Shown here piece by piece: positions 133 to 19,696 of a stretch of DNA of 20,519 nucleotides. A model generated the notes under the pieces. The model was not told where the DNA came from. It ran no database searches and was given only the letters and a program-made list of their open reading frames with translations. The translations under genes and the position numbers were made by a program. Each line of letters opens with the position of its first letter. The stretch's first letter is position 1. The stretch lies in the IMG/VR virus record IMGVR_UViG_3300037502_001976, positions 1-20,519 of that record; one strand, written 5' to 3'. The DNA is from a virus.

Positions 133-362
133 TTTTCAACTGTTTCTGTCATTAAACCTATTCTTTTACTGTTTGTGATAGGAATATATTTTATAACTCC
201 ATTAACATATTGTTCTACTTCTTCACCGCACAGAGAACATCTGTAGAAATCTTTGTATAAGAATAACAAAGGTGATAGTAAATTGCAATAGGGACATATG
301 CCATGTTCTATTTTGGCATCTAATTTTAAAGCGCGTCTAATTCTTTTTAATTTTTTTGGCAT
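129..362 (-). CDS. Small zinc-ribbon protein
   Basis: This 77-aa basic protein carries two CxxC knuckles, CPYC (Cys23, Cys26) and CSLC (Cys42, Cys45), separated by 15 residues. That spacing is typical of a zinc ribbon. The first 20 residues are Lys/Arg-rich. Zinc ribbons usually bind nucleic acid or protein; here either is possible and no specific partner can be named. The start overlaps the end of the upstream 221-aa gene by 26 bases and the stop overlaps the next ATG as ATGA, placing it inside the replication operon downstream of DNA polymerase. The zinc-binding fold is well supported by the motif; the function is inference. Confidence 0.8.
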   Translation of the reverse strand: MPKKLKRIRRALKLDAKIEHGICPYCNLLSPLLFLYKDFYRCSLCGEEVEQYVNGVIKYIPITNSKRIGLMTETVEK

Positions 363-1002
363 CTATGTCGTAGAACATATCATCAGAATCATCTGTCTTC
401 CAATCTTTATTTTCTACGTTCCACTCATTAGTTTGGACTTTATAATCCGGCCAATGTGTTGAAGTTGTAAAACTAGGAATACTCCACAAAATACGATTAT
501 TAGGCTGAATTGCAAAATTACCGTTATCAAGAGCCAAAATGTGAGCACACTTATGTTGATCGGGAATTTCAGAATGTTCAGTATCGATGATATTAGGTTC
601 CGGATGTGCCCAATCCACAGTGAATAAATATTCTCCATGATAAAACTTTTTGTTCTTACCTAAATATCTACAACGTTGTCCTACTAAAAAATCAAAAGTA
701 GTAACAGCAGGATAATAACTAAATGAATTCCACAACTCAAGATCGTCGAGAGTCTGATGTTCCATTTGTGATTGATGCACAGTACCGCTGTTTCTTCTTT
801 GAATAAAAGCAGAGATAGGAAGCCTCCAGTATATTGCACCATTCGTAAGTAAAGCATGAAATAAGATTGCACGCCCCGGAATACTTGCAATAGCAAAGAC
901 CACACAATCTTCAGTTTCGCCTTGATGTTCTCGTAAGTCATATAAATATTCTCTCCTTATTTTACAGTATATGGGTGGTATATTAGCATTTAAATAAGAC
1001 AT
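337..1002 (-). CDS. Conserved phage protein of unknown function, 221 aa
   Basis: I do not recognise a named domain. The protein is soluble, rich in aromatic residues (many Trp, Tyr and Phe) and ends in a charged tail (DSDDMFYDIDAKKIKKN). It has no signal peptide or membrane helix. Short blocks such as GRAILFHALLTNGAIYWRLP and the WNSFSYYPAVT region look like conserved beta-rich core segments. It sits 6 bases downstream of the polymerase stop codon and its 3' end overlaps the zinc-ribbon gene by 26 bases, so it belongs to the replication operon and may act in DNA or nucleotide metabolism. No clear Shine-Dalgarno precedes the ATG; coupling to the polymerase gene is likely. Confidence 0.75.
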   Translation of the reverse strand: MSYLNANIPPIYCKIRREYLYDLREHQGETEDCVVFAIASIPGRAILFHALLTNGAIYWRLPISAFIQRRNSGTVHQSQMEHQTLDDLELWNSFSYYPAVTTFDFLVGQRCRYLGKNKKFYHGEYLFTVDWAHPEPNIIDTEHSEIPDQHKCAHILALDNGNFAIQPNNRILWSIPSFTTSTHWPDYKVQTNEWNVENKDWKTDDSDDMFYDIDAKKIKKN

Positions 1003-1008
1003 TGAAAG

Positions 1009-2871
1009 CTATTTTATTGAACCCCAATCATCACCATATTCAAAATCAACTTTATTAGGTATTTCTAATTTAATTGCTGATTCCATTATTTCTACTATTT
1101 GTTTTGCATGGTCACTAGATTCAACAGATATATCTAATTCATCGTGAACTTGTATATGAGGTACAATACCAGCTTCACTCAATGCAATGATAGACATTTT
1201 AGTCATATCAGCAGCTGATCCTTGTATTAATCTATTTAATGCTTTGTATGTTCCTGCTCTTTTAATTCCAGGACCATATTCTTTTATTGCATCAGCATGT
1301 TTTTTAGGAATGCCAGCACCAAAAGTCATTGGCTCCCACATATCAAAATGACAAAGTCTTCCACCAATTGTTCTTATCTTACCATAATCATCTGCTCTTC
1401 TTGATACCGCTTGCATTAATTGTTTTATGAATGGAGCTTTAGCATGATATTGAGCAATTAGTTTTTCTGCTGCTTCTTTCATTAAACCTAACTCTGCCAT
1501 TAATTTGTTTTTACCCATACCATACATTAATCCAAGATTAATTGTTTTAGCTTGTGATCTTTCAATACCAGCCATCTTTGCAACTGCTGCATGGAAATCT
1601 GCTTCCCCTGCTTCATATGCTTCTGCAATTTCACTAATGCCATCAAGTTTTTGTAGTTTAGCATAATGAATTAATATTCTTGGTTCTTGTTGTGAATAGT
1701 CAAATACACCCCACTTGTGATTTTCTTCTGGAATAAATATTGATCTAATCATTGGACCTAATTCTTTATGTCTTACGGGAATCTGTTGTAAGTTTGGATT
1801 AGACATTGAGAATCTTCCTGTAACAGTTCCACCATCATCAGATCGTATTTGATTTATATCTGCATGTATTCTTCCGTTGTAAGAATGTTTTACAATCGTA
1901 TCTATAAAAGTTGTATGCGCTTTGTTTATCTCTCTTGCGTTTGCAATTGATTGTGCAAGTTCATGAGGATGATTTGCTAAAAAGTTTCTAGTAAAACTCG
2001 GAGCTCCTGTTTTTTCTGTTTTGTCGTATGGAAGTTTGAGTGCATCAAATGCTTTAGCAATAGATGCTGCAGCCCATAATTCTACATTAACTCCTGTTAA
2101 CTCCTTGATTTTAAATAACAATTTCTTTTCTTGATCTATAAGATTATTCTTAATTTTAGAAGCTTTTTCTAAATCAACTCTTACACCTTTGAATCTCATA
2201 TCAACAAGACATGGAAATAATTTTGTCTCCATATCAAAGATTGTCCATAAATCTTGATCAGATAATTCTACTTTCATTCTGTGCCAAAGTTTTAAAGTTG
2301 ATTCAGCATCTCTTTCTGCATACTGACCAACATACATAGATGGAAGTTTCCACATATCTTTTTTAGCATCGATACCATATTCTCTTGCAGCTGCTTGTAA
2401 TACTGCTTCATCTTTACTTATTCCTGCATATTCTTTTGCAAGATCATTTAATCTAAAGCTCCATCTATTTTCATTTACAAGTGATGCAGCAATCATTGTG
2501 TCTACAACTTTTGCAGGAGGTTTAATACCTGATGATCTTAACCAACAGATATCATACATTGCATTGTGAAATATAAATGTAGCATCTTGTTTAAATAAAT
2601 TTTGTAACCAATTTAAAACTAACTTCTTATCCATGTTACCACCACCATCATGAGCTATTGGATAATATGCGGACCATCCTTCTACTGCTACTGATACACC
2701 TACAATATGACCACGACCAACCACGTTCCCCGATCCGCGTTCAGTTAACTCTGGATCACAGGTCTCTAAATCCACTGCGATTTCCTTATGACCTTGTAAG
2801 TCTTTTAATTCTTCTGGTACCACCCATTCTGTTTGTGGTGTAAATAATATTTGTTGAAATGTTCGTGTCAT
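1009..2871 (-). CDS. polA: Family A DNA polymerase with 3'-5' exonuclease domain
   Basis: This is the phage replicative DNA polymerase (Pol I/T7 gp5 type, 620 aa). Residues 30-200 form the DnaQ-like proofreading domain: exo I DLET (34-37), exo II FHNAMYD (101-107) and exo III YAERD (184-188). The polymerase domain follows. Motif A is DYSQQE (391-396), with catalytic Asp391. Motif B carries Arg438, Lys442 and Tyr450. Motif C is HDE (576-578), with catalytic Asp577. All catalytic acids are present and there is no 5' nuclease domain, as usual for phage enzymes. Lys442 aligns with E. coli Lys758, so Leu446 occupies the Phe762 position. The start codon overlaps the DUF3310 stop as ATGA, and the gene is expressed with the helicase and primase upstream. 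Confidence 0.97.
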   Translation of the reverse strand: MTRTFQQILFTPQTEWVVPEELKDLQGHKEIAVDLETCDPELTERGSGNVVGRGHIVGVSVAVEGWSAYYPIAHDGGGNMDKKLVLNWLQNLFKQDATFIFHNAMYDICWLRSSGIKPPAKVVDTMIAASLVNENRWSFRLNDLAKEYAGISKDEAVLQAAAREYGIDAKKDMWKLPSMYVGQYAERDAESTLKLWHRMKVELSDQDLWTIFDMETKLFPCLVDMRFKGVRVDLEKASKIKNNLIDQEKKLLFKIKELTGVNVELWAAASIAKAFDALKLPYDKTEKTGAPSFTRNFLANHPHELAQSIANAREINKAHTTFIDTIVKHSYNGRIHADINQIRSDDGGTVTGRFSMSNPNLQQIPVRHKELGPMIRSIFIPEENHKWGVFDYSQQEPRILIHYAKLQKLDGISEIAEAYEAGEADFHAAVAKMAGIERSQAKTINLGLMYGMGKNKLMAELGLMKEAAEKLIAQYHAKAPFIKQLMQAVSRRADDYGKIRTIGGRLCHFDMWEPMTFGAGIPKKHADAIKEYGPGIKRAGTYKALNRLIQGSAADMTKMSIIALSEAGIVPHIQVHDELDISVESSDHAKQIVEIMESAIKLEIPNKVDFEYGDDWGSIK

Positions 2872-3086
2872 TTATCTTTATAATCTCTTTCTAATATCAT
2901 TTCCAAATAGTGCATCGCTTTTAATATATCTTCTTTCTTACCTTTTAATCGGTGACGACAGATATATTTAATTGCATTACCTTCAGCGAATGGTAATTTA
3001 TTTTCGTTTATGAATATAGATGGCTGTATCTTCATTAATTTATAATGTTTACCACCAACTTGTTTAAAGAATGTTTTGTTTGTCAT
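2868..3086 (-). CDS. DUF3310 family protein (T7 gp1.7-like)
   Basis: The 72-aa protein has the DUF3310 signature: VGGKHYK near the N-terminus, a KIQPSIFI segment, EGNAIKYICRHRLKGK in the middle, then a helix with AMHYLEMIL. DUF3310 proteins are small phage proteins related to T7 gp1.7, which has been linked to nucleotide kinase activity on dGMP/dTMP. Whether this shorter member has that activity is unknown. It lies between helicase and polymerase genes and overlaps both by 4 bases (ATGA at each end), so the three should be made from one coupled message. A role in nucleotide supply or replication fits this position. Confidence 0.88.
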   Translation of the reverse strand: MTNKTFFKQVGGKHYKLMKIQPSIFINENKLPFAEGNAIKYICRHRLKGKKEDILKAMHYLEMILERDYKDK

Positions 3087-4591
3087 ATCAAATATGCGCG
3101 ATCAAAGTTCTTTGGATCTACAATATGTAATTCTTTCTTTGCTCTTGTAAAAGCAGTGTAATACAAACGATGTAAATCATCAGGATCTGTTTCGCTTTGT
3201 TTAATTGCAGCAGCTGTTAAATCTAATAGAACACAAATATTATCTCGTTCGCCACCTTTGAACGCGTGGATTGTTGACATAAGAATACGTGGAGTCTTAT
3301 TTATCTTCTCACCATTTGCTCTCATATTACGAATATAATTTTCAGTAATTGTGTCTACACCTTCAAATGATTCATACCATACTTTATCAGTAAGTAAACC
3401 ATGATTTTTAATACAGTCTTGTATTAAATACTTTTGTTCAACTTTCAATGTTTTAGCATCTCTGTATCCAGGAACTACATTGGCACCTAAATATTTATAT
3501 ATATTTTTTATCTGTATATAATTTAATGGTGTACCATTTCTAAAATCTTCCCAATTACTTAATGCCAGTAATAATTCTAATGATAAAGAATTAACTCCTT
3601 TATATTGATAATACCAACCTTGTAATTCACACAATTCTTTTACATCATCTAAAAAGTAGTTAGCTGAAGCAAGAACAGTCCATTCTCCTTTGGACATATC
3701 TAACTGTGTAATATCAGTATAGTATCTTAAAATACCTGTTTCTTGACGTGGTTTATAATCTTTTTGATATCTATTCTTAACTTTAGATATAATCCTTTGT
3801 GATAATTCGTGTATAGGACCACCAGGAATACGATAAGATTGATTAAGCGTCCTGATCTCGTCTACCTCATCTTTTAAGGCTATAAAGTGATCTACATCGG
3901 CCCCAGCCCATTTAAAAATGGCTTGATCATCGTCTCCTGCAATATAAGTCTTTTCAGCTTTATTCCAAATACATCTAACCATTTCCCATTGCAAATGAGA
4001 TAAGTCTTGTGCTTCATCTATAAATAATACTTTAAGTTTAGGAGCTATGTCTTTCTCAATAAAATCCTCTAATAAATCTGTAAAATCTTTTAATCCTTTT
4101 TCTTTTTTGAATCGTTTTAATTCTTGGTCTATTAAAAACAATGTATCTCTTTCTATATCTAATAGGTTTCTTCTTGAATCATAGCATTCCATTAAATCAA
4201 TCTTCTTAACTCTTGCTGTATTAATAATGGTTAAATATTCATTGTCAGAATTAAAGATACCATCTTCATTAGAATAAGATGCAGTCTTAATTGGTATATT
4301 ACATTTTAATCCAAACTCTCTATAATCTTCTGGGTTCATCATTCTATCTCTAGACATACTTAATAATTTGAATGCAAGTGAATGCAATGTCTTAAAATAA
4401 ATTAAATCATGTTCAGGACTTAACCCAAATTTTTCAGATGCTCTTGTTGCAGCTTCTTTTGCAGCCTTCTTGGTAAAAGAAAAATAACCTATCTCTCTTG
4501 GTTTAATTCCTTGTTTAATAAATTCATCTACCAAGTTTAACAATGTTGTTGTCTTTCCTGTTCCAGGTGGACCTAGTATTATTGTCTTCAT
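3083..4591 (-). CDS. SF1 DNA helicase, UvrD/PcrA-like
   Basis: This ATP-dependent DNA helicase has 502 aa. Walker A is GPPGTGKT (7-14), Walker B is FIDEAQD (190-196), motif III is AGDDDQAIFKWAG (218-230), motif IV is QSYR (251-254), motif V is STIHAFKGGE (439-448), and motif VI lies in YYTAFTRAKKEL (477-488). These order and spell as in UvrD/Rep/PcrA enzymes, which translocate 3'-5' on single-stranded DNA. It is shorter than cellular UvrD (about 700 aa), and Walker A begins at residue 7, so the N-terminal Q-motif is absent. The start is secure: there is an in-frame TAA just upstream and an AGGAGG site 10 bases before the ATG. It may unwind DNA at the fork with the primase and polymerase, or act in recombination. 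Confidence 0.94.
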   Translation of the reverse strand: MKTIILGPPGTGKTTTLLNLVDEFIKQGIKPREIGYFSFTKKAAKEAATRASEKFGLSPEHDLIYFKTLHSLAFKLLSMSRDRMMNPEDYREFGLKCNIPIKTASYSNEDGIFNSDNEYLTIINTARVKKIDLMECYDSRRNLLDIERDTLFLIDQELKRFKKEKGLKDFTDLLEDFIEKDIAPKLKVLFIDEAQDLSHLQWEMVRCIWNKAEKTYIAGDDDQAIFKWAGADVDHFIALKDEVDEIRTLNQSYRIPGGPIHELSQRIISKVKNRYQKDYKPRQETGILRYYTDITQLDMSKGEWTVLASANYFLDDVKELCELQGWYYQYKGVNSLSLELLLALSNWEDFRNGTPLNYIQIKNIYKYLGANVVPGYRDAKTLKVEQKYLIQDCIKNHGLLTDKVWYESFEGVDTITENYIRNMRANGEKINKTPRILMSTIHAFKGGERDNICVLLDLTAAAIKQSETDPDDLHRLYYTAFTRAKKELHIVDPKNFDRAYLI

Positions 4592-4691
4592 ATTTCTTTA
4601 ACCTCCTTTCTAATATTTCTTTTTGCAATTTTACTTTTTCATATTGTTCTTTTAACAATCTGTATTTTAAAAACCAATTAATACCTATCAT
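4524..4691 (-). CDS. Small coiled-coil ORF overlapping the helicase start
   Basis: A 55-codon ORF fills the space between primase and helicase. Its ATG (4691) shares one base with the primase stop (TAATG), and AGGAG lies 11 bases upstream. The first 35 residues, starting MIGINWFLKYRLLKEQYEKV, are a plausible amphipathic or coiled-coil helix with a hydrophobic start (IGINWFL) and alternating Lys/Glu/Leu. The last 22 codons overlap the helicase gene in another frame and look random (Asn/Arg-rich), so either the overlap is tolerated or the functional part is the N-terminal helix. It may instead serve mainly to carry ribosomes to the helicase start. No family recognised. Confidence 0.5.
   Translation of the reverse strand: MIGINWFLKYRLLKEQYEKVKLQKEILERRLKKYEDNNTRSTWNRKDNNIVKLGR
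4602..4607 (-). promoter_or_regulatory. Strong ribosome binding site of the SF1 helicase gene
   Basis: On the minus strand AGGAGG lies 10 bases before ATG 4591, inside the 3' half of the small coiled-coil ORF. It is one of the few full Shine-Dalgarno matches in the window, and with the in-frame TAA just upstream it fixes the helicase start. Confidence 0.8.
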
Positions 4692-6244
4692 TAAAAATGT
4701 TGCTCCTGATATTTAGTTGGTGATACTGTTGTATTAATTTTTTTCATTGTTCTAATCTTAACTAATCTAGGTTGTTGACCTTTGATTCTAACTCTTGATT
4801 CTTCTACAAATATTCCATCTGCCTTTAATGATGTAATTAAATTTCCTGTCTTTGCCTTATCCATTTCCCAATGATTCTTTTTACAAAAGTTATAAAAGTC
4901 TTCCATTCTAAAGTATGTAAATTCTCTTTTATCATCTGTGTATGGAAGTTTATTAAAGATATCATCCATCGTTCTTGCATTCTGTCTATTCGTAGTCCAA
5001 TCTTGTAACAATGAAATGAGTTGATTTTTAGGATCCAATGATTCTAAAGGTTGAACTGTTTCTAACTTATCCATTAAAGGTTTTAGATAAAACTCTCTCC
5101 AATCTTTTTCTTTTAATTTAGGTACTAATAAATCTGCTTTCTCTAACATTGCTAATGAGAATAATGCAGGACTAGCTAATTGTTCAGCTTTCAATTCAAC
5201 TCTCTTTTGTTTTTTATCTTCTGTTTCCTCTCCTATATCTAAAAAGTATTGTGGTGGATTAGAATTGTATTTAGTTAAATTTCCAAGTTTAGGCATCATT
5301 TCTCCTCCATCTCCTACACCAAATTTTCTAGTTCTACATAAAGATGGATTACAAACATCTACAATTGGAGGAAGTTTGCATCTATATTTATCGTAACCTT
5401 TTCTACCAATGGATTTTAATAATTGCTGTACTTCTCCATTTGGTAATGGCGGAGACATGTACTTTAAGTTAGCTGCAACGACTTTATCTTGCCAAGAATC
5501 TGGATCAGATTGTTTAAAATATATGGCAATATTAAACAATGAGTTATTTCTAGATCCTTCGCCAAAGCCGTCGCGAGCTAATCTATTTAAACATGGAGGC
5601 CCATCTTTAAATACTTCTTCTACCTTTTCTTCTTTGATTTCAATTTTTTCAACTTCTTCCCTGCTGCGCGCATAAATATCATAGAGCTTATAAAATTCCT
5701 CAAGTGACATAGCGGAGCCATTATCGTCGAACGCATATCTCAATCCTTTCTCTTGGTTATGGTATGGGAGATTTAAAAAATTACCTGTGTCCCCACGTTC
5801 CACAAGTATTTCAGTTTGTTTAGGAAATATTTCAACACCTGAATATCCTAATCCTTCTGAAATTTTTTTAAGTGTAGTTTGCATCAATGATGCAGGTATA
5901 AATTCTTTGGTGAATAAAAATACGTGTGCTCCTCCAGATTTAGATCTGAATACTATTAACGGAAGTTTTAAACTTCTTATTTTCTGTACTAATTCTTTGT
6001 GTTTAAGATTATACTGATCAATATCAATACAACCCCACTTACAATTATTTTGTTCATTAATGGGAATAATACCCAAAGCAGGATCAACACCATTAAGGTG
6101 GTCTTCCCAAAGGTTATCCGTGATCGGCTTTCTAACAATGAATGCTTTTCCTTTTTGTTTTCCATTCTCTCCACGTTCCCCTTTTTGATATTGTCCGTAT
6201 GCACTTTGCAGTCCACTAAATATTTCCTTAAATTTTTCTTTCAT
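4691..6244 (-). CDS. AEP-type DNA primase with PriL-like C-terminal region
   Basis: This 517-aa protein looks like an archaeo-eukaryotic primase (AEP). The N-terminal catalytic part shows the metal-binding IDID motif (73-76), an SGGAHVF block (103-109) containing His107, and VEIFPKQTE (137-145), matching the hDhD, sxH and third-motif order of AEP enzymes. Residues 212-310 begin PPCLNRLARDGFGEGSRNN and carry Cys218, Cys289, Cys298 and Cys303. This resembles the four-Cys helical domain of the large primase subunit PriL, which binds an iron-sulphur cluster. The C-terminal 120 residues look like a winged helix (region 450-510). It would make primers for the family A polymerase. The gene follows the SSB-like gene; no clear Shine-Dalgarno precedes ATG 6244. 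Confidence 0.87.
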   Translation of the reverse strand: MKEKFKEIFSGLQSAYGQYQKGERGENGKQKGKAFIVRKPITDNLWEDHLNGVDPALGIIPINEQNNCKWGCIDIDQYNLKHKELVQKIRSLKLPLIVFRSKSGGAHVFLFTKEFIPASLMQTTLKKISEGLGYSGVEIFPKQTEILVERGDTGNFLNLPYHNQEKGLRYAFDDNGSAMSLEEFYKLYDIYARSREEVEKIEIKEEKVEEVFKDGPPCLNRLARDGFGEGSRNNSLFNIAIYFKQSDPDSWQDKVVAANLKYMSPPLPNGEVQQLLKSIGRKGYDKYRCKLPPIVDVCNPSLCRTRKFGVGDGGEMMPKLGNLTKYNSNPPQYFLDIGEETEDKKQKRVELKAEQLASPALFSLAMLEKADLLVPKLKEKDWREFYLKPLMDKLETVQPLESLDPKNQLISLLQDWTTNRQNARTMDDIFNKLPYTDDKREFTYFRMEDFYNFCKKNHWEMDKAKTGNLITSLKADGIFVEESRVRIKGQQPRLVKIRTMKKINTTVSPTKYQEQHF

Positions 6245-6297: not shown

Positions 6298-7080
6298 CTA
6301 AAACGGCACGTTCTCGTTTACTCTCTCTTCTACATCAGCTCTTGTTTGCACCGATCCTCTTTTTACATCACCTGAAAAACCTTTTGCACTTAAGTACAAA
6401 GATTTATCTTTGGTTTCTAGAATTCGGTCTTGTGTTACTACCCAACCATACCAACTACCTTTATCATTTTTTTGTAAGTTAGATGATAAGTTGTATACAA
6501 CACCATGCATTGGAGGAACTGCAAATCCACCTTTACCGTCAGGGATCTGAACAGTTTTCATCATTGCGTTCCACTTCTTGCTCACATTAAGTTGAGTTGA
6601 TTTCATGGTAATTAAAGCTGGAGTATAACCACCTGCTTTAGTTTCCACCATTACATAGTAAGAAGCAGTCTCTTCTAAATAGTTACCATTTGGTAATCTA
6701 ATTTTAGATCCTTCTCTCTTACCTGTAGCTATCACTGGACTGTTTGGTGAGTGTAATGCAACAGGAGCTGCAGATCCTTCACCTCTTTCAGACCATTCTG
6801 GATAGTCTTTCTTATAGTAACAAGGAATAACTTTAATTCCTTTTTTACCATCATACAGTTCATTCGTAACTGTATTGTATATCATACCAGGTTTAGCACC
6901 TGTTACGTATTTAGAATCACCTTCAGTTACCTGTGGTGATAATTGTCCAAGGATTCTTATGAAAGGTAACGCAAGATCTTGTTGCGTCATGTTTTCAAAG
7001 CCTTTGTCTAGATCATCTCCAAACAAAGCTACAGAACCATTGGTTACTGGTTTTTTTACCATTGCTTCATTAGCCATCAT
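6298..7080 (-). CDS. Probable single-stranded DNA-binding protein
   Basis: The 260-aa soluble protein lies directly upstream of the primase in the replication operon. It ends in VEERVNENVPF, an acidic stretch capped by Pro-Phe. This is the hallmark of SSB and T7 gp2.5-like C-terminal tails that recruit other replication proteins. The middle is beta-rich with basic and aromatic residues (KVIPCYYKKDYPEW; YYVMVETKAGGY), compatible with an OB-like fold, though I cannot prove the fold by eye. GGAG lies 5 bases before ATG 7080 and 8 bases before the next ATG at 7077, so the true start may be 7077. SSB is an inference from tail and position. Confidence 0.62.
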   Translation of the reverse strand: MMANEAMVKKPVTNGSVALFGDDLDKGFENMTQQDLALPFIRILGQLSPQVTEGDSKYVTGAKPGMIYNTVTNELYDGKKGIKVIPCYYKKDYPEWSERGEGSAAPVALHSPNSPVIATGKREGSKIRLPNGNYLEETASYYVMVETKAGGYTPALITMKSTQLNVSKKWNAMMKTVQIPDGKGGFAVPPMHGVVYNLSSNLQKNDKGSWYGWVVTQDRILETKDKSLYLSAKGFSGDVKRGSVQTRADVEERVNENVPF

Positions 7081-7090
7081 CGTTTCTCCA

Positions 7091-7654
7091 TTATTTACGG
7101 GTTATTTTAGTTGTGTCTTTAATCCAAGTACTAAAGACTTCAGAAGGCATGTCGAGCCCGGACTCGACACGCTCCTGAAATAGGGCTGTCAAAGTATTCC
7201 AAGCCACATCAGATTTCTGTTGTGGATCAAAACCATTTGACGCCGCAAGGTCCAACAATTGTTGTGCCTTGTCATCTTCGCCACGACCGAACGTAACAGA
7301 AACATTGTTTTTAATAATGTCTCCAAGTCCGTTTTCACGAAGCCATTTATAAGCTTCTTCCCTTTTGAAGTCATCTTTGGGAAGTGTACATCTATATTCT
7401 CTTTTGACTGTTACAGATGAACCATCAGCTAATTTCAAAGAACTTAAACCTTGCTCCGCTAGGAGTTCAGGTATAACTCGTTCACTAATATCTCTTGCCA
7501 TTGCTTTTAGATTATCTACATGCTCTTCAGCTCTAGTAATATCATCTTCTAAAGCTTTTAATTTTTGGCATTGGTCTGCTATTGTAGTTACTTCTACATT
7601 GTCTAGAAGATCCGTAGAATCATCTAGCATCATTTGTTTTACATCGTCACTCAT
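7091..7654 (-). CDS. Coiled-coil phage protein of unknown function, 187 aa
   Basis: I cannot name the family. The N-terminal 20 residues are acidic (SDDVKQMMLDDSTDLLDN). Residues 27-57 have a heptad-like, highly charged pattern (LKALEDDITRAEEHVDNLKA) suggesting a coiled coil. A helix and beta-hairpin segment (ELLAEQGLSSLKLADGSSV) follows, then a mixed C-terminal domain. This coiled coil plus short beta domain is seen in small phage proteins encoded next to SSB genes. The start is 2 bases downstream of the 132-aa gene's stop, with AAGGA in the last codons of that gene acting as its ribosome binding site. Near its 3' end the gene carries a GC-rich perfect inverted repeat (7150-7169). Confidence 0.78.
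   Translation of the reverse strand: MSDDVKQMMLDDSTDLLDNVEVTTIADQCQKLKALEDDITRAEEHVDNLKAMARDISERVIPELLAEQGLSSLKLADGSSVTVKREYRCTLPKDDFKREEAYKWLRENGLGDIIKNNVSVTFGRGEDDKAQQLLDLAASNGFDPQQKSDVAWNTLTALFQERVESGLDMPSEVFSTWIKDTTKITRK
7150..7169. repeat. Perfect 7-bp inverted repeat inside the 187-aa gene
   Basis: TGTCGAG and CTCGACA flank the 6-base loop CCCGGA. The element lies in the codons for the RVESGLDM stretch, which use G/C-ending or G/C-rich codons (GTC, GAG, TCC, GGG, CTC, GAC) unlike the AT-rich codons around it. It may form an mRNA hairpin about 60-80 bases before the end of the gene, or be a protein-binding palindrome. Confidence 0.55.
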
Positions 7655-7656
7655 AA

Positions 7657-8055
7657 TTATCCTTTCTGATAGAGATCGAATTCAATTGGGTAATATTTAA
7701 ACTCTCTACGATCCCATTTCAAGAGTTTAAATTGGCCATTGGTCATGTCACTTGCTATTGCACAAGAAATACCAATGACCGCCGGATCTCCTGTTAGCAA
7801 TATATAATCTTGCTTTCTAAAATCTTTTAAATTCTTTCGCATCTTAAATACGAAAGGTGCTGCATTAAATGCAACTTGATCAAAGTAGGCAAGGCATATA
7901 ACTAAATATCCAAAATTAGAAGCGCTTAATATATTTATATTAGCTGGTGGATGTTGTAATACATACACAAAATTTTCTTTAGGGTTCTCTTTAATAAACT
8001 CTAAAAACTCTGTAAGACTTTTATCTTTATATAACTCAAATATTTTATTTTTCAT
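7657..8055 (-). CDS. First gene of the replication operon, unknown function, 132 aa
   Basis: No family can be named. The protein is basic, with a Lys-rich N-terminus, a hydrophobic but not clearly membrane-spanning middle (NINILSASNFGYLVICLAYF) and a C-terminal DRREFKYYPIEFDLYQKG. It is the promoter-proximal gene of the leftward replication operon: a predicted transcription start near 8071 leaves a leader of about 16 bases with purine-rich AAGAGAG before the ATG. Promoter-proximal phage genes are often expressed early, so an early host-interaction or regulatory role is possible. The last codons supply the Shine-Dalgarno of the next gene, 2 bases away. Confidence 0.78.
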   Translation of the reverse strand: MKNKIFELYKDKSLTEFLEFIKENPKENFVYVLQHPPANINILSASNFGYLVICLAYFDQVAFNAAPFVFKMRKNLKDFRKQDYILLTGDPAVIGISCAIASDMTNGQFKLLKWDRREFKYYPIEFDLYQKG

Positions 8056-8126: not shown

Positions 8127-9566
8127 ATGGTAAGAGATTATAGGTTTAAAACCAAGCCATACGAGCATCAATTAGTTGCTTTAGAAAAGTCTTGGGATAA
8201 AGAAGAGTATGCATATTTTATGGAGATGGGTACAGGTAAATCAAAAGTACTTATTGATAACATTGCTATTCTTTATGACAAAGGAAAAATAAATGCGGCA
8301 ATGATTATAGCACCAAAAGGTGTTTATAGGAACTGGTTATCTTCTGAAATTCCTACACATATGCCTAGCCATATACAATATAAAAGTGTACTATGGACAG
8401 CTTTAACATCCAAAACAAAAGATAAAGAGTACCAATCTTTGTTTGAAACAGACTATAACCTTCACATCTTTATTATGAATGTTGAAGCTCTATCAACGCC
8501 AAAGGGTATTGCTTTTGCGCGTAAATTTTTATCATGTCATAATACTTTAATTGCTGTAGATGAATCTACTACAATTAAAACACCAAAAGCAGCGCGTACT
8601 AAAAATATAATAGGTATTGCAAGTCTTGCTAAATACAGAAGAATATTAACAGGTTCACCTATAACTAAATCTCCTTTAGATTTATATACACAATGTAAAT
8701 TTTTAAACGAAGATTTATTAGGTTTTAGTTCTTATTATTCTTTTCAGAATAGATATGCTTGCATGGTAGATAAATGGTTTGGTGGTAGAAAAGTATCTGT
8801 AATTAAATCTTATCAAAGGTTAGATGAATTATCTAAATCAATAGAGCCTTTTTCATATCGTGTATTAAAAGAAGATTGTTTAGATTTACCTGATAAAATT
8901 TATATTAAGAGAGAAATAGATTTAACAGAAGAACAATTAAAGATGTATCAATCAATGAAACTTGTAGCCATGGCAGCATTAAAAGGTAAAGTTGTTAAAG
9001 CCCCACATGTATTAACTCAATTAATGAGATTACATCAGATAACTTGTGGTCATGTAATGACAGAAACAGGTGAGATAGTTGATATTGAAAATAATAGATT
9101 AAAAGAACTTATTAATATTTTGGAAGAAGTTGAAGGTAAAGTTATTATATGGTCTCATTATACACATGACATCAGAAAAATTTCAGCTGAATTAAAAAAG
9201 ACTTATGGTGAAAATTCTGTAGTAGAATATTACGGACAAACAGAATCTGAAACTAGACAAAAAGCAATAGACAAATTCCAAGATCCGCGATCCCCGGTCC
9301 GATTTTTCATTGGCAATCCACAAACAGGCGGGTATGGTATTACGCTAACAGCGGCCAGTACAGTTATATATTATTCTAACGGTTATGATTTAGAGAAGAG
9401 ATTACAATCAGAGGATCGTGCACACAGAATAGGACAAAAGAAATCAGTTACTTACATTGATCTAATTGCGGAGAAGACTGTTGATGAAAAGATTGTCAAA
9501 GCTCTCCGCAAAAAGATTAATATTGCGTCCGAGGTTCTCGGAGAAGAATTAAGATCTTGGATTTAA
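8127..9566 (+). CDS. SNF2-family ATPase/helicase-like protein
   Basis: This SF2 DNA-dependent ATPase of the SNF2/Rad54 type has 479 aa. Motif I is MEMGTGKS (32-39), motif II is DEST (145-148), motif III is LTGSP (174-178), motif V is GGYGITLTAAS (401-411), and motif VI is QSEDRAHRIGQ (427-437), a strong SNF2 signature. It covers only the two RecA-like domains without accessory domains. SNF2 enzymes move along double-stranded DNA and displace bound proteins; phage members may clear host proteins from DNA or assist recombination and replication restart. It is the only gene on the plus strand and diverges from the replication operon, so it is probably controlled separately. No strong Shine-Dalgarno is seen; the purine-rich AGAAAG lies 13 bases upstream. 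The codons for motifs V-VI are locally GC-rich. Confidence 0.95.
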   Translation: MVRDYRFKTKPYEHQLVALEKSWDKEEYAYFMEMGTGKSKVLIDNIAILYDKGKINAAMIIAPKGVYRNWLSSEIPTHMPSHIQYKSVLWTALTSKTKDKEYQSLFETDYNLHIFIMNVEALSTPKGIAFARKFLSCHNTLIAVDESTTIKTPKAARTKNIIGIASLAKYRRILTGSPITKSPLDLYTQCKFLNEDLLGFSSYYSFQNRYACMVDKWFGGRKVSVIKSYQRLDELSKSIEPFSYRVLKEDCLDLPDKIYIKREIDLTEEQLKMYQSMKLVAMAALKGKVVKAPHVLTQLMRLHQITCGHVMTETGEIVDIENNRLKELINILEEVEGKVIIWSHYTHDIRKISAELKKTYGENSVVEYYGQTESETRQKAIDKFQDPRSPVRFFIGNPQTGGYGITLTAASTVIYYSNGYDLEKRLQSEDRAHRIGQKKSVTYIDLIAEKTVDEKIVKALRKKINIASEVLGEELRSWI

Positions 9567-9599: not shown

Positions 9600-9673
9600 T
9601 ACTTATAATTATTATAAATTAGATATAATAAGATAATAAAACAAACAATAAAAAATATTGTTATTGTAGTCAT
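9599..9673 (-). CDS. Candidate 24-aa single-helix membrane micropeptide
   Basis: The ORF starts at ATG 9673, overlapping the hsp20 stop as TAATG, and encodes MTTITIFFIVCFIILLYLIY followed by NNYK. This is an uninterrupted hydrophobic helix of about 17 residues with a polar basic end, the size of one transmembrane segment. The same TAATG junction links known genes here (4691, 16555, 18439). T-rich DNA encodes Phe/Ile/Leu by default, so chance remains possible. If real, it is a small membrane protein made with Hsp20. Confidence 0.4.
   Translation of the reverse strand: MTTITIFFIVCFIILLYLIYNNYK
9603..9617. repeat. Perfect AT palindrome in the convergent intergenic region
   Basis: TTATAAT and ATTATAA flank a single T. 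It lies downstream of the SNF2 gene within the candidate membrane micropeptide ORF. All pairs are A-T and the loop would be too tight for a stable RNA hairpin, so a protein-binding site is more plausible than a terminator. It may be chance in such AT-rich DNA. Confidence 0.3.
9644..9662 (-). terminator. Weak hairpin with T-rich tail downstream of hsp20
   Basis: On the minus strand AACAATA and TATTGTT pair around TTTTT and are followed by TGTTTTATTATC. This has the layout of an intrinsic terminator, but only one of the seven base pairs is G-C. It sits where the leftward hsp20 message and the rightward SNF2 message converge. Termination would be inefficient if it occurs. Confidence 0.3.
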
Positions 9674-10095
9674 TATTTAATATCTATTTTAACGCCTTCA
9701 ATTTCTTTAGGTTCGTTAAAACCAAGTTTGATTTTAAGTAGACCATCTTTCATTTCAGCTTCATCAACTATTACATCTTTAGCTAATTCAAACTGTTTGA
9801 AAAATTTTCTAAATGCTAGACCTTTTTGTACGTAGTCTACATTTTTATCTTCTACTTTTCCTTCTATTGTTAAAATACCGTCTTTAACTTCTACAAGTAC
9901 GTTATCTTTATTGTAGCCAGCTAAACCGATTTCTAATCCGTATTTACCTTTTGAGTATTTTACTACATTGTAAAATGGAAATGATTGTACTTTTGACCAC
10001 GTGTCAAAAATATTTTCAAACGCATCATCAAAAAACTTTGTTGATCCGTTGAACATTTGTTTGCTTAAATTATTGAAAACTTCTAGGTTTGTCAT
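9673..10095 (-). CDS. Hsp20 small heat-shock protein
   Basis: This 140-aa alpha-crystallin family chaperone holds unfolding proteins in an ATP-independent way and forms oligomers. The N-terminal arm has FPFYNVVK, then the crystallin core with KYGLEIGLAGYNKDNVLVEV, a GILTIEGK strand, a LAFRKFFKQFELAKDVIVDEAEMKDG segment and the family motif GLLKIKL near residues 120-126. The start is chosen at ATG 10095, because AAGGAG lies 6 bases upstream; the longer frame to 10137 adds 14 residues without a ribosome site. It follows speD and has its own promoter-like sequence (10154-10181). Hsp20 genes are common in large myoviruses and marine phages, where they probably aid virion assembly or protect host proteins during infection. 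Confidence 0.93.
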   Translation of the reverse strand: MTNLEVFNNLSKQMFNGSTKFFDDAFENIFDTWSKVQSFPFYNVVKYSKGKYGLEIGLAGYNKDNVLVEVKDGILTIEGKVEDKNVDYVQKGLAFRKFFKQFELAKDVIVDEAEMKDGLLKIKLGFNEPKEIEGVKIDIK

Positions 10096-10101
10096 AATTA
10101 T

Positions 10102-10107
10102 CTCCTT
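10102..10107 (-). promoter_or_regulatory. Ribosome binding site deciding the hsp20 start
   Basis: AAGGAG on the minus strand lies 6 bases before ATG 10095. It is the only good Shine-Dalgarno match near the 5' end of this gene and favours the shorter 140-aa protein. Confidence 0.75.
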
Positions 10108-10153
10108 TGTTAAGCAAGTTAATTGGTCCATCCACATGATGCAACCTGGAGGA

Positions 10154-10181
10154 GATATAATGATTATTTATTAATTTTCAA
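10154..10181 (-). promoter_or_regulatory. Promoter-like sequence for hsp20
   Basis: TTGAAA (10181-10176), inside the last codons of speD, is followed after 16 bases by TATATC (10159-10154). The spacer contains TAATAAATA and ATCAT, and the -10 region reads ATCATTATAT, the same blocks as in the replication-operon promoter at 8078-8106. A start near 10147 would give a leader of about 50 bases. Confidence 0.5.
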
Positions 10182-10746
10182 GTACTGATTTTTCTCTTGT
10201 AATATGGCCAACAACTGTGCCTTTATGAATACCTTCTTTAATTCTATACCCATGTGTGCCACTGCCATTAATCTCAACTTCTTTTCTACTTTTTAATAGT
10301 GCATTGTTTTTCTTCTCTATTTCTTTATTTTCATAATTTCTTGCAATCATATCTTCTGAAAAATTAATAGTATGTATTTCACTTAAATCATTCTCTCTGT
10401 CTAAAAATTTATATTCTATTTTTGTAGTGTTAAAATCTCTTTTTATTTTATTGCATATTGTTTCAGGATCAAATTCGCCGCAGGAGTAAACATCAAACTG
10501 CAACAAGGCGGGGTCAGGTTCATCCCATACATGCATTACTATATGAGAAGTTTCTATAATAGCTGCTCCTGTAATTCCACGATTCCCGATCATGTGAGAA
10601 TACTTTACGTATGGTCCCATCATAACCTTCATTCCTATTTCATCTATAAATTTCTTAAACCATTCAGTAAGGAAAGCTTCATCCATTGGAGGATTTTTAG
10701 CTTCTGCACGAACAATTAAATGTTTATGTACTAAAACTTTATTCAT
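10171..10746 (-). CDS. speD: S-adenosylmethionine decarboxylase family protein (SpeD)
   Basis: This pyruvoyl-dependent decarboxylase of the AdoMetDC/SpeD family makes the aminopropyl donor for spermidine. Numbered from ATG 10746 (191 aa), the motif IETSHIVMHVW contains Ser67, the expected self-cleavage residue that becomes the pyruvoyl group. His72 and Cys89 (in DVYSCGEFDPE) fall where the processing His and catalytic Cys lie in the short bacterial enzymes. The core ends near residue 130; a charged tail of about 60 residues (NYENKEIEKKNN..., GTHGYRIKEGIHKG) is extra. A TTG at 10761 could add 5 residues; no Shine-Dalgarno decides between them. No spermidine synthase gene is nearby, so a host partner is implied. 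Some SpeD homologues act on arginine or ornithine, so the substrate is not certain. Confidence 0.9.
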   Translation of the reverse strand: MNKVLVHKHLIVRAEAKNPPMDEAFLTEWFKKFIDEIGMKVMMGPYVKYSHMIGNRGITGAAIIETSHIVMHVWDEPDPALLQFDVYSCGEFDPETICNKIKRDFNTTKIEYKFLDRENDLSEIHTINFSEDMIARNYENKEIEKKNNALLKSRKEVEINGSGTHGYRIKEGIHKGTVVGHITREKSVLEN

Positions 10747-10790
10747 AAGCGCGTCATACAACTTTTTGAAATTAATGCAACAAATTATTT

Positions 10791-11249
10791 TTAAACAATT
10801 GGGGAATAAATTGTCTTGCCATCTACTTTAGATGCTTTAAGATATTGCCGTCTATTTTTGGCTGCAGAATAACTGCAATGAATCCATCCGGAGTTAGGGT
10901 CGTCAGGGGTCCAGAATTCAAGTATACATTGATCGTAATCAAGGTTTTTAACCAACCAATCACTAACTTCCTTGTTTGCTACACCAAATACTTCAAAGTC
11001 GGCTGCTTCACCACGAGTGTGTTGACTCTTGCTTGATGATCCTATTCTCTCACAAAGTTCTGGCGATCTATATCCAGAGCTGATTGTAACCGGTAAGTTA
11101 AAGTTATCGCGTACAGGTTGTAATATGTATTGGCAAAGTAATTGTAAATTAAATATGTGATCTGAATTTGGTTCGTTTGGTATTCCGAGTCTTATTGCTT
11201 CTTGGGATTTAGTTAACTCTTCTAAAGAAAAGTTGTTGCTTAATTTCAT
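10791..11249 (-). CDS. Peptidase M15 family endolysin
   Basis: This zinc peptidase of the M15A/D-Ala-D-Ala carboxypeptidase type has 152 aa and is expected to cut peptidoglycan cross-links at the end of infection. The N-terminus (NFSLEELTKSQEAIRLGIPN) is typical of phage members. Then come a conserved SGYRSPELCERIG block (58-70), SQHTRGEAADFE with zinc ligands His77 and Asp84, and GWIHCSY with the third ligand His124; Glu111 is a possible catalytic acid. There is no signal peptide, so export depends on a holin. The ATG overlaps the stop of the adjacent membrane-protein gene as ATGA, giving a holin-endolysin cassette. Confidence 0.93.
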   Translation of the reverse strand: MKLSNNFSLEELTKSQEAIRLGIPNEPNSDHIFNLQLLCQYILQPVRDNFNLPVTISSGYRSPELCERIGSSSKSQHTRGEAADFEVFGVANKEVSDWLVKNLDYDQCILEFWTPDDPNSGWIHCSYSAAKNRRQYLKASKVDGKTIYSPIV

Positions 11250-11473
11250 TTAAGTTTAAATAAAATGACTATGAGAGTTAATGCGAGAGCGCCCATTCCT
11301 GTAAGCATAGCTTTTTGAATCCAATCAACTTTCTTTTCTATCTTATAGATAGCACAACTCATATGTTTGAGATGATTGTTTTTTATTGTAGATATATCTT
11401 TTTTAAGATTATCCACTCTGTGATATAAATCTACCATATGTTCATCTAGCCGAGATTTTATGATTTTCTTCAT
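11246..11473 (-). CDS. Coiled-coil membrane protein, probable holin or XhlA-like lysis protein
   Basis: The 75-aa protein has a basic, heptad-patterned N-terminal part (HMVDLYHRVDNLKKDISTIK and IYKIEKKVDWIQ) and a single hydrophobic helix at residues 54-73 ending LIVILFKLK. Coiled coil plus C-terminal membrane anchor matches the layout of XhlA-type haemolysin/lysis proteins. It overlaps the endolysin gene downstream and the 1286-aa virion gene upstream, by 4 bases each (ATGA). Position and topology argue for a lysis role, either as holin or as holin partner. Family membership is by pattern only. Confidence 0.75.
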   Translation of the reverse strand: MKKIIKSRLDEHMVDLYHRVDNLKKDISTIKNNHLKHMSCAIYKIEKKVDWIQKAMLTGMGALALTLIVILFKLK

Positions 11474-14400
11474 ACTGTTCTCTGTCTTTGTCTAATTAGT
11501 TTTTCAGCAGGTGATAATAGTTGTTCTTCAGCTACTGTCAACTTTGTTATTGGGTTAATTTGATTACCAGCTACAGCTGTAGGTAAATTAACTTGTCCAT
11601 ATCCTTGTATATCAGTAGGATTTGGTAATTGTGGTAATCCTTGTATTGGAGCTAATGTAGGTTCAGCTAGATTCTTAAATGGATTTTCTATTTCTGGTAA
11701 TCCAGGAGCAGTTAAAGGAAGTGTAGATAATCTATCTCTTATATTATCTATTATACCAGATGCTTGATCAAAAGGGTTTGGTAAACCTAAATTCAAAGCA
11801 TTTTCTTCAAATAAATCTTTTACATCTTTAGATATATTTAAAGGTGTAAATACACCATCATTAATAGAACCAAATTCTTTTTTAGAAATACGTTCTGCAT
11901 TTTTAGAGATTACATCTTCAGATGTTCCTAATAATTCAGCTGCTCTTATATCTTTATAAAAATCTTTTTTAACACCAAACAAAGCTCTGTTAGCATTTAT
12001 ATATGCATCTACAATTTCTTCTGGGGTTACAGGACCACCTCTTAAAGTATTTCTTGTAAACAATTGTCTTGACTCTCTAATACCTTTTTGAAGTTCAGCA
12101 ACTTTAAATTTTAATCCACGTTCCACGTTTAACTTAACGGGTCTAAATCCTGTAAAGCCAGCTAATTCATCTCCTAATTCAAAAGTTTGTCCATACTTAT
12201 CAAATTTACCTTTTTGAATAACATCAACTGGTTCAATAGCTAAATCTAATCTTTTTAATTGGTCATATGAAAATGGAGCTTGTGTTTTTGCTAAATGAGT
12301 AATAGCAGCGATTATTTTATTTCCATCTGTATCTTCAGGATTAAATATTTGATTGCCTTCTCTATCTCTTCCGCCTCTAATAAATATATCTGCAATTGCT
12401 TCAGACCATATAGCTTCTGTTACGAATGGTTGACCTAATTCTTTTGTAGATTCTATTAATCCTCTAAAGAAATCATTCATTATACCATCTTTATCATTTC
12501 TGCCTGATGAAACTTGATTAAGAACAGTTTGAATTGGTCTATACAGTAAATCATATGCATTGGCGTGACTAAAATCTACGTACTTTAATTCACCTGTTTC
12601 TTTATCTTTAATTGGAATTAATGTTGAATTTTTAGACCAATCAGCAACATATCTTCTCATTGCTTCTACTTGTTCATCTGTAACATCGTAAATAACTTTA
12701 GCCATTTCAACAACAGCTGTAGGAACTGCTGCTGTTGTTACACCCATTCCAACTAATCTTTGATAACCAATACCAGCTAATGGTTTAACAATAGTTCCAT
12801 CAGCTAATTTAACTTCTGTTGTTATTTCGTCTAACGCTCTACTAATAATATTAGTAGATGTTCTCATTATTTCAGCTGGAAAAGATACGAAATTACCAAA
12901 TGGTAACTTACGTAAACCTTTTATAAAATCTCCAACATAATCATAGTTTGGAATGTTATTTCTTATTATACTTGCTGCTTCTTCATCTAATTCTTTTACA
13001 GTTTTATTTATTCCATACTTGGCATAAGCGTTATCTAAACGTTTACGTTCCATAGCCCATGATGTAATTTTCCAAAAGTCATCTTCAGCTGTATATAAAT
13101 CTTCAGATACTTTTTTAATTTTTGACAATGGTCTTAACATTAATCTTAAAAATTTATCTGAATTAACTGTTTCACCAAAACTAATATCTTTTAATAAATT
13201 ATTTAAATCTCCAAGAGCAACGTTTTTATTAACAACTCCTAACTCCAATAATTTTCTATACAGTTCATTATTTTGTCTTGTTCCTGGTAATGCTGTTTGT
13301 AAAGCTGAATATGCTTCACGCATTGATTTAACATCAGGTATAATTCCATTAGCTGTTGCAAATGCTCCTGCGCTTATAAAATTTCTTAAATGAGTAACTG
13401 GAGATAAAACTGTTTTAGCTAATTGAGAAGTTGCTTTAGGGTATAAAATTAAATTTTCATAAAGCTTACCAATAATACTATCACTTCTCATTTGTGATGA
13501 TGTTTGTTCTAAAGCATCTGCAATTTCTGTTATTGCATATTTACCATTAACGGGATTTGTAATTCCAGCTTCTAAAGCTTTATTAGGATCTATGTTAATT
13601 TTTTTAAAATCAGGACCTAAATTTTGTAATGCTTCTTCTTCCGTATCATAAAATATTCCTTTACCTCTAGCTTTTAATTCATCTGATTTAGCAACAAGGT
13701 CTTGAAAAAATTCATTTCTTCTTGTTATTAAAGATAATCTAGCAGTTCCACCTAATATTGTTTGCATAGGATTTTTAGTTTTACCAAGAAGTTCTTCTAT
13801 AACTTTTCTATTTTCAGCTGGTAAACTACTTAACGAAGCAAATCCTTTATCTGTAACAGCTTCATCTAATACTGTTTTACCCACAAAGAAATCAGGTATT
13901 TGAAATACAGGATCAGAAGGTTTATCCATTCTGAAACCTTTTGGAAGTCTTGCAGTTTTAACTAAACGTTCTACATAATAATTAGCTTGTTCATCTGTAA
14001 TTTCTTTGCCATTTTGCAAGGCAACTTCTTTAAACATATTCTTTGTTTTATTAATTGCTTCTTCTGCAGGTTTAAAATTAAAGAAAGGTATTAAAGATTT
14101 ATTTTGAAATATATCATAAGTAGAACCTAAATAATTTTTAAATTTGTTTCCAAATAAATTTTTAAAATCACTTATATCATTAGGATCTATTTTTCCTCCA
14201 ATGGAACTAAACATGTCTCCCCAACCAGATCTTATTAAACTTATATTGTCTAAAATACTTGTTATCGTTTTATCGTCAGCTCCGTATTTTCTTAAATTAT
14301 CTACAATACCTTTTTGTAATGTTTCATCTACATTTCCAAATGCAACTTTTCCTGCATCATCTATTGTAGGTTCTCCTGATAATAATAAATCATTCAACTT

Positions 14401-18922: not shown

Positions 18923-19696
18923 CTATGATTTCTTCTTTTCGTCAACTAAAGATTGGACGTTAGCTTCTGCTTTATCTTTCTTTTGAAACATTAAGCTTAA
19001 ACTACCATGGTAAGAATGTGAACCAAAATGTGTTAATGGACTCATAGCATCAGCGTATATTTTACCGCCTGCTTTAACCCATAATGTACAGAAAGATATA
19101 TCTTCTCCAAGATAACCATTTTCAGGATCTTGTGCAGTTTCAAAGAAGGTATACCAACCATCTTTCATAACCTCTACTTTATTACCTACTAACTGTTTAT
19201 TAACAGTTTTCTTCTCTGGATATACTTCTGCTAGTTTAGTGAATACTTCTCTTTTAATCATCATAAATCCAGTTGGCCCTGCAGTAATTTCTGTAAAACC
19301 ATCTTTCTCTACTTTAACATTATCTTTATCCGGAAAGTGTACAATAAACTGCAATTGATTATTAGGACCATAACCTTTTACTGGATAAGGTGTTAAACAT
19401 AATGGTACATCTTTTTCTAATAATCTATAAACAGCTTCTGGTTCAAATCCAATATCTGAATCCACAAATAACATATGAGAACAATCTGAATTTAGAAAAG
19501 AAGCTACACAATTATTTCTAGCTTGTGTTACTAATGCCATCCCCGATTGAAGATGTAATGCTGTTGATACTGCAAGTCTTGGATGTGAATGAGATACAAA
19601 TTTCATCATACTGTTCATATAGTTTGTAGTAACCATATGACCAAATGCTGGTGTTGCTACGAATAATTTAATGTGCTTTTTTTTGGCTTCTGGCAT
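18923..19696 (-). CDS. GT-A fold glycosyltransferase
   Basis: This 257-aa predicted glycosyltransferase starts with the LFVATPAFGHMV strand-loop, has TQARNNCVASFL (57-68), the metal/nucleotide-binding MLFVDSDIGF with the DxD motif at 79-81, AGPTGFMMIKREVF (139-152), GEDISFCTLWVKAGGKIYAD (197-216), and His223 and His227 in the THFGSHSY segment. This arrangement fits GT2-like GT-A enzymes with a DxD metal site and a late acidic acceptor site. There is no membrane helix. It overlaps the upstream GT-B gene by 29 bases, so the two are probably made together. Likely roles are glycosylation of virion proteins, phage DNA or host surface sugars. The sugar and acceptor cannot be told from sequence. Confidence 0.9.
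   Translation of the reverse strand: MPEAKKKHIKLFVATPAFGHMVTTNYMNSMMKFVSHSHPRLAVSTALHLQSGMALVTQARNNCVASFLNSDCSHMLFVDSDIGFEPEAVYRLLEKDVPLCLTPYPVKGYGPNNQLQFIVHFPDKDNVKVEKDGFTEITAGPTGFMMIKREVFTKLAEVYPEKKTVNKQLVGNKVEVMKDGWYTFFETAQDPENGYLGEDISFCTLWVKAGGKIYADAMSPLTHFGSHSYHGSLSLMFQKKDKAEANVQSLVDEKKKS

Follow-up and report, generated by a model that had tools for sequence, protein, structure and literature searches.

The stretch of viral DNA analysed here (the window, 20,519 nucleotides) contains an open reading frame that a first-pass annotation had read as a phage primase in which an AEP catalytic domain is fused to a four-cysteine domain of the kind found in PriL, the large subunit of archaeal and eukaryotic primases. 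Such a protein raises three questions: whether the four-cysteine domain is a true relative of PriL, what its cysteines bind, and whether the enzyme primes replication of the phage that encodes it.

Overall organisation and catalytic domain

The open reading frame lies on the minus strand at positions 4691-6244, as do all the features of this protein described below, and encodes 517 residues from an ATG start; the plus strand of the same interval is interrupted by stops throughout. The PHROGs family phrog_21866 ('primase') matches nearly the whole chain (5.9e-98), and the Pfam AEP-TOTE and PriCT_1 profiles both score above their cut-offs, giving a protein in which an AEP domain is followed by a four-Cys domain resembling PriCT-1 and the PriL C-terminal domain (CTD) and then by a probable winged helix. 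All of the motifs quoted in the first-pass annotation are present, namely IDID, the SGGAHVF region (SGGAH), VEIFPKQTE, the PPC of Cys218, the YRC of Cys289, and Cys298 and Cys303.

Residues 1-200 (5645..6244) constitute the AEP/Prim-Pol catalytic domain. AEP-TOTE matches residues 39-200 (E=1.5e-15; 57.9 bits against a cut-off of 27), and profile comparison matched the AEP domain to the Prim-Pol domain of MsCAPP (7nqd/7p9j) at 3e-14. With Foldseek the structure 7nqd matched the model of the phage primase at E=1.2e-11, and among solved structures the CAPP Prim-Pol is the one most closely related to this domain. The three motifs of the AEP/Prim-Pol superfamily are found within the AEP fold. Motif I (DxD) is the sequence CIDID at residues 72-76 (6017..6031), with the catalytic Asp74 and Asp76; motif II (sxH) is SGGAH at residues 103-107 (5924..5938), with His107; and the acidic motif III lies in VEIFPKQTE at residues 137-145 (5810..5836), with Glu138. 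Each of these four residues, together with Phe140 and Pro141, is invariant in 83 of 83 homologues, which were drawn from phage genomes and IMG/VR, made non-redundant at 85% identity and reach down to approximately 23% identity. With AEP-TOTE over its cut-off, invariant catalytic residues and a fold match to the CAPP Prim-Pol, the assignment as an AEP primase is secure. HP0184 of Helicobacter pylori (2atz) also matched the phage primase model (Foldseek, E=4.9e-5), presumably through the AEP domain, and this match to a model suggests that HP0184 has an AEP-like fold.

The C-terminal region, approximately residues 330-498 (4751..5257), probably adopts a winged-helix fold. It is modelled by AlphaFold2 with pLDDT mostly above 85, and a Foldseek match of the model to the winged helix of TcpK (5vfy; probability 1.00, TM 0.57 by target) would fall on these residues. 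For the full-length AlphaFold2 model the mean pLDDT is 88.8 and the pTM 0.57, the latter suggesting that the domains are perhaps loosely placed relative to one another.

The four-cysteine domain and its conservation

Residues 208-318 (5291..5623) form a compact helical module resembling the PriL-CTD, as delineated by an alignment of 105 domain sequences from viral and bacterial-genome contigs, by AlphaFold2 modelling and by a comparison with bridging phage primases described below. Modelled alone, the domain has six helices, with a pLDDT of 82.6 and a pTM of 0.77. Its core, residues 226-284 (5393..5569), is matched by Pfam PriCT_1 (PF08708) with 23.1 bits against a gathering cut-off of 21.1 (E=5.6e-5), in a position after the AEP domain, and the same profile matches 89 of the 105 domain members at E<=0.1. 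Because this match falls between the first and second cysteines (Cys218 and Cys289), the cysteines frame a known domain.

Cys218 is located at the start of the first helix in a PPC motif (GPPC; 5591..5593), Cys289 in the sequence YRC (5378..5380), and Cys298 and Cys303 at 5351..5353 and 5336..5338. The first-pass annotation had singled out these four residues and had named homologues in which they vary as a refutation. Its proposal survives that check, and the pattern is well beyond chance: they are invariant in 83/83 homologues, exactly as are the catalytic residues, and in 105/105 domain sequences, where the only invariant columns are P-P-C, the other three cysteines and one glycine. The primase has seven cysteines in all, and the other three vary among the 83 homologues. 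The spacing is C1-x66-77-C2-x8-C3-x4-C4, in which the x8 is replaced by 10 residues in nine sequences and by 4 in four, and the final x4 is constant. Arg232, at the start of the second helix (5549..5551), is invariant in 83/83 viral homologues and is replaced by lysine in two genomic ones. It lies near the position of Arg306 in human Pri2, a residue that binds triphosphate (PMC5333051).

Nine relatives (L377 and L382-L389) lack the cysteine set, each keeping at most one aligned cysteine. Eight of these have, by inspection, a C-terminal P-loop helicase-like region, the exception being L383, and a further helicase fusion, L372, keeps all four cysteines. When the presence of the four cysteines is mapped as a label onto an AEP-domain tree, approximately 3 changes are needed, against 8.7 for shuffled labels (by a quick method, on a tree with several weak forks). 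The four cysteines behave as one unit, and their loss as a complete set is the pattern expected if they share a single metal site.

Which metal this site holds is the point on which the main rival explanation turns, for it accepts the same domain and the same ancestry and differs in placing structural zinc, rather than an iron-sulphur cluster, between the cysteines. Four cysteines that include a C-x8-C-x4-C arrangement could indeed ligate zinc, and zinc sites are common among primases. The [4Fe-4S] cluster of PriL, however, is bound by a distant cysteine in a helix followed by a cluster of three, with no CxxC knuckle among them, and the cysteines of the window domain follow that same order. 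Relatives that bear the PriL domain also carry [4Fe-4S], and purified PolpTN2 is brown (PMC3973330). By analogy with these proteins a [4Fe-4S] cluster is likely in the four-Cys domain, and we regard zinc as a rather unlikely occupant, albeit one to be taken seriously.

Relationship to the PriL C-terminal domain

Direct comparisons with PriL gave little. The profile search that the first-pass annotation had offered as a check came out negative, the PriL family PF04104 (DNA_primase_lrg) having no match to the window protein at E<=1 and none to any of the 105 domain members at E<=0.1. Weak PF04104 places in two Bacillota proteins (L409 and L410) were discarded, as these resemble formyltetrahydrofolate synthetases. 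A tblastn search with human Pri2 against phages and plasmids found no match. Fold searches with Foldseek, using either the full model or the domain alone, gave no significant PriL match, and no PriL chain was among the top 50 for the domain; PriX (4wyh) had the highest TM among the matches listed for the domain (0.43/0.47), yet ranked only 17th with E=3.4. When Pri2 sequences (the chains of PDB 5f0q and 6di6) were compared by hhalign with the profile of the window domain (A3), human Pri2 aligned in the PPC register with P=0.015, 3 of 300 shuffles scoring equally well, and yeast Pri2 aligned in another register.

The N-terminal domain of PriL, which docks on PriS, is absent from the 517-residue chain, and there is no room for it, since the AEP domain occupies residues 1-200 and the PriCT_1 match already begins at residue 226. 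The proposal that this single chain combines both primase subunits therefore fails, in that it is the C-terminal (Fe-S) domain of PriL that is represented and not the N-terminal one.

A path to PriL was found through other primases. In a sample of PriCT_1 proteins, 33 of them from approximately 500 genomes in two phyla and one more from a plasmid, the four-Cys arrangement was present in L440 alone. This Bacillota protein, a 636-residue ORF, is the key bridge and is itself an unusual primase-helicase, with a PriS-like AEP domain, a four-Cys PriCT-1 domain (residues 255-338) and a DnaB-type helicase. Its four-Cys part aligns with the A3 profile at E=5.8e-10 (hhalign), and its phage relatives in Thermus phages P23-45 and TSP4, Bacillus phage KLEB27-3 and Moorella phage MTATph1 end in a domain of the form PPC/PAC...C-x8-C-x3/4-C. 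A five-member set of these PriS-type bridging sequences aligns with A3 at E=1.7e-13, with all four cysteines in register, and with the yeast Pri2 CTD at E=1.5e-5, with the first cysteine in register (both by hhalign). In a shuffle control for the yeast Pri2 comparison none of 300 shuffles did as well (score 35.7 against a shuffled maximum of 21.1). PF04104 also matches four of the five phage bridge proteins scanned, below its threshold (E 0.006-0.12), at places that overlap the four-Cys domain or adjoin it.

The kinship of the window domain with the PriL-CTD is thus transitive, running from A3 to the bridge set and from there to yeast Pri2, and is supported stepwise rather than directly. Judged from these alignments, the four-Cys domain most likely represents the PriL-CTD in compact form, with the metal site retained. 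Of the earlier proposal of a PriL-like four-Cys domain, then, the kinship holds by way of bridging families, and neither a direct PF04104 match nor a significant fold match to PriL was obtained.

It could instead be argued that an ordinary PriCT-1 bundle acquired four cysteines independently and that its likeness to PriL is convergent. The rarity of the arrangement among sampled PriCT_1 proteins (1 in 34) and the failure of the direct PriL comparisons to reach significance are what such a history would leave. Against it, the bridging primases align both with the window domain and with Pri2, in the registers given above; homology of PriCT and PriL has already been published (PMC5862659); and the Cys-less relatives are nested among four-Cys sequences on the tree, a placement that points, with moderate support, to loss. 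We consider convergence unlikely, and kinship of the domain with the PriL-CTD remains the reading that we prefer.

Genomic context

The primase gene sits in a replication module made up of genes resembling gp32, gp33 and gp34 of Pam3, the primase, a UvrD-like helicase, DUF3310 and a family A polymerase. The Pam3-like genes lie upstream of the primase on the minus strand (6298..8055; PF23977, PF23984 and PF23992). The next gene downstream encodes a UvrD/Rep-like SF1 helicase (3083..4591, minus strand; UvrD-helicase E=1.5e-33), in the same order in relatives, and beyond it is a family A DNA polymerase with a 3'-5' exonuclease (1009..2871, minus strand; DNA_pol_A E=2e-64, exo1 3e-14), whose presence in the same phage had been correctly recognised at the outset. 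The order primase-helicase-polA recurs in phages 023Pt_psg01 and DSL-LC04 and in Pelagibacter phages HTVC027P and HTVC023P. The window itself is a 20.5-kb fragment; in six complete genomes of related phages neither DnaG_N nor DnaB_C was found. As these relatives lack DnaG and DnaB, the AEP protein is their main candidate primase, and the window protein is probably the phage's own replicative primase. A role instead in repair, recombination priming or a conflict system, which the nearest named families (the TOTE conflict system and the CRISPR-associated Prim-Pols) might bring to mind, is improbable given a score with the NCBIfam CAPP model (32.5) that falls far short of its cut-off (200), the lack of a fused helicase or any cas-like gene seen, the conserved replication module and the complete relatives' genomes without DnaG or DnaB.

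Several other genes in the window were noted. A gene at 10171-10761 (minus strand) resembles S-adenosylmethionine decarboxylase (AdoMet_dc E=5.6e-17), an auxiliary gene for polyamine synthesis carried by a phage, and adjoins a gene for an Hsp20/alpha-crystallin small heat-shock protein (9673-10137, minus strand; E=9.3e-12). The sole large plus-strand gene (8127-9566), divergent from the replication module, encodes a SNF2/HepA-type helicase. The 221-residue product of 337-1002 (minus strand) matches phrog_3704 'ferredoxin' at 1e-76; it has no Pfam match, few cysteines and no ferredoxin-type cysteine motif, and the PHROG name looks doubtful. The minus strand further carries an M15 peptidase, a probable endolysin (10791-11249); a 1286-residue product that neither PHROGs nor Pfam matches and that is probably a large component of the virion (11470-15330); and a group 1 glycosyltransferase (19668-20441).

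Proposed function and significance

Taken together, we think it probable that the protein is a replicative primase with a compact relative of the PriL-CTD holding one metal site, most likely [4Fe-4S]. The AEP domain would form the dinucleotide and extend the primer. The helix bundle would be fastened through the metal, which would join Cys218, where helix 1 begins, to the three cysteines that follow helix 4 (Cys289, Cys298 and Cys303). In the manner of p58C, the four-Cys domain would grip the template and also the initiating nucleotide by its 5'-triphosphate, with Arg232 as a candidate triphosphate contact. It would swing relative to the catalytic domain on a linker of approximately residues 190-214, and in this way would govern initiation and the length of the primer. 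Binding of DNA or of a partner is the probable task of the winged helix, and in vivo the family A polymerase would then use the primer, together with the UvrD-like helicase. The CAPP CTD has been modelled in a Pri2-like role, and the CAPP Prim-Pol domain primes in vitro without its CTD (PMC10345425), so that the four-Cys domain may be dispensable for catalysis.

A broader proposal, on whose merits we are evenly divided, is that PriCT-1 and the PriL-CTD are one mobile module, the metal-bearing form of which has been retained by phages of bacteria. A compact Fe-S initiation domain, mounted on at least two quite different AEPs (TOTE/CAPP-like and PriS-like), would then prime replication in several lineages of phages. 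In a few lineages, mostly those to which a helicase was fused, the cluster would have disappeared in one step.

An aquatic phage would, on our preferred reading, have its own single-chain primase, built from a copying domain of archaeal/eukaryotic type and a helper domain that was thought to be eukaryotic and is common in bacterial viruses. If the site holds [4Fe-4S], the Fe-S primase, deemed a hallmark of archaea and eukaryotes, would be commonplace among phages that infect SAR11-type bacteria and others, and the protein would offer a small, single-chain, genetically accessible enzyme with which to probe the role of the cluster in folding, in gripping the triphosphate or as the disputed redox switch. 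Cultured Acinetobacter and Klebsiella phages carry the four-Cys primase.

Comparison with known systems

As an idea, such a fusion is of a known kind, with precedents in PolpTN2, in CAPP and in the published link between PriCT and PriL. The present analysis adds a large phage primase family in which a compact PriCT-1 keeps four cysteines, the loss of these cysteines as a complete set, and a bridge to Pri2 at the sequence level; no description of these was found in a search limited to open-licence papers. The bridge families supply a sequence link between PriCT-1 and PriL that was earlier based on structure comparison and weak profile matches.

The window protein differs in nothing essential from the other members of PHROG 21866 ('primase'); those in pelagiphages and in Acinetobacter, Klebsiella and Roseobacter phages are full-length homologues. 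All sampled homologues of this short form keep the four cysteines, a site that the PHROG annotation does not mention.

CAPP (MsCAPP/MpCAPP) provides the closest solved AEP domain, and its PriCT-like CTD is reported to contain conserved cysteines (PMC8211822). The window protein differs in having no TPR or RT domain and no CRISPR context: it scores 32.5 bits with NCBIfam PrimPol_Msp, for which 200 are needed, and no cas-like gene was present among the ORFs scanned. A class search for further CAPPs returned four genomes. Two Bacillota CAPP_A proteins fused to reverse transcriptase (L397 and L398) have CTDs with EGC/DGC...C...C-x-C, and a stretch in them, LSHYERL/LRHGERL, resembles LRHGGRM of Pri2; from these motifs, CAPP CTDs may be Fe-S domains too. 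Neither of the two CTDs gave an hhalign match to the window domain. The TOTE conflict system shares the AEP-TOTE domain, but no helicase is present within the 517-residue chain.

PolpTN2, from Thermococcus plasmid pTN2, fuses an AEP domain with a PriL-like four-Cys domain and is light brown on purification (PMC5862659, PMC3973330). The PolpTN2/PrimPol-PV1 supergroup resembles the phage primase in joining AEP, PriCT-1, a PriL-like four-Cys region and a winged helix in a single chain (PMC5862659, PMC3973330). In PolpTN2, however, the chain is 945 residues long with PriCT-1 and PriL-like regions separate, whereas the phage-borne primase is compact at 517 residues. PolpTN2 gave no hhalign alignment with the A3 profile, which places the window protein outside a PolpTN2-like family, and no phmmer match in the PDB. 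Earlier PriS-PriL fusions are known from Nanoarchaeum and a Bacillus provirus (PMC3973330).

The PriL/Pri2 (p58) CTD has the same order of elements as the phage domain, with Cys1, helix 1, helix 2 bearing the arginine, helix 3, and then Cys2, Cys3 and Cys4, and human Pri2 also has the PPC motif. Human and yeast Pri2 have C2-x16-C3-x39-C4 where the phage domain has a compressed C3-x4-C4. In further contrast to PriL, the phage domain is fused to the catalytic domain, lacks the PriL-NTD and has no direct PF04104 match. PriCT-1 has been related to the Fe-S_N subdomain of PriL (PMC5862659). The PriS-type phage primases (P23-45, KLEB27-3 and MTATph1) share the four-Cys terminal domain, with C-x8-C-x3/4-C and PPC or PAC, but their catalytic domain is closer to DNA_primase_S/LigD, and a DnaB-type helicase is fused in L440 and adjacent in MTATph1.
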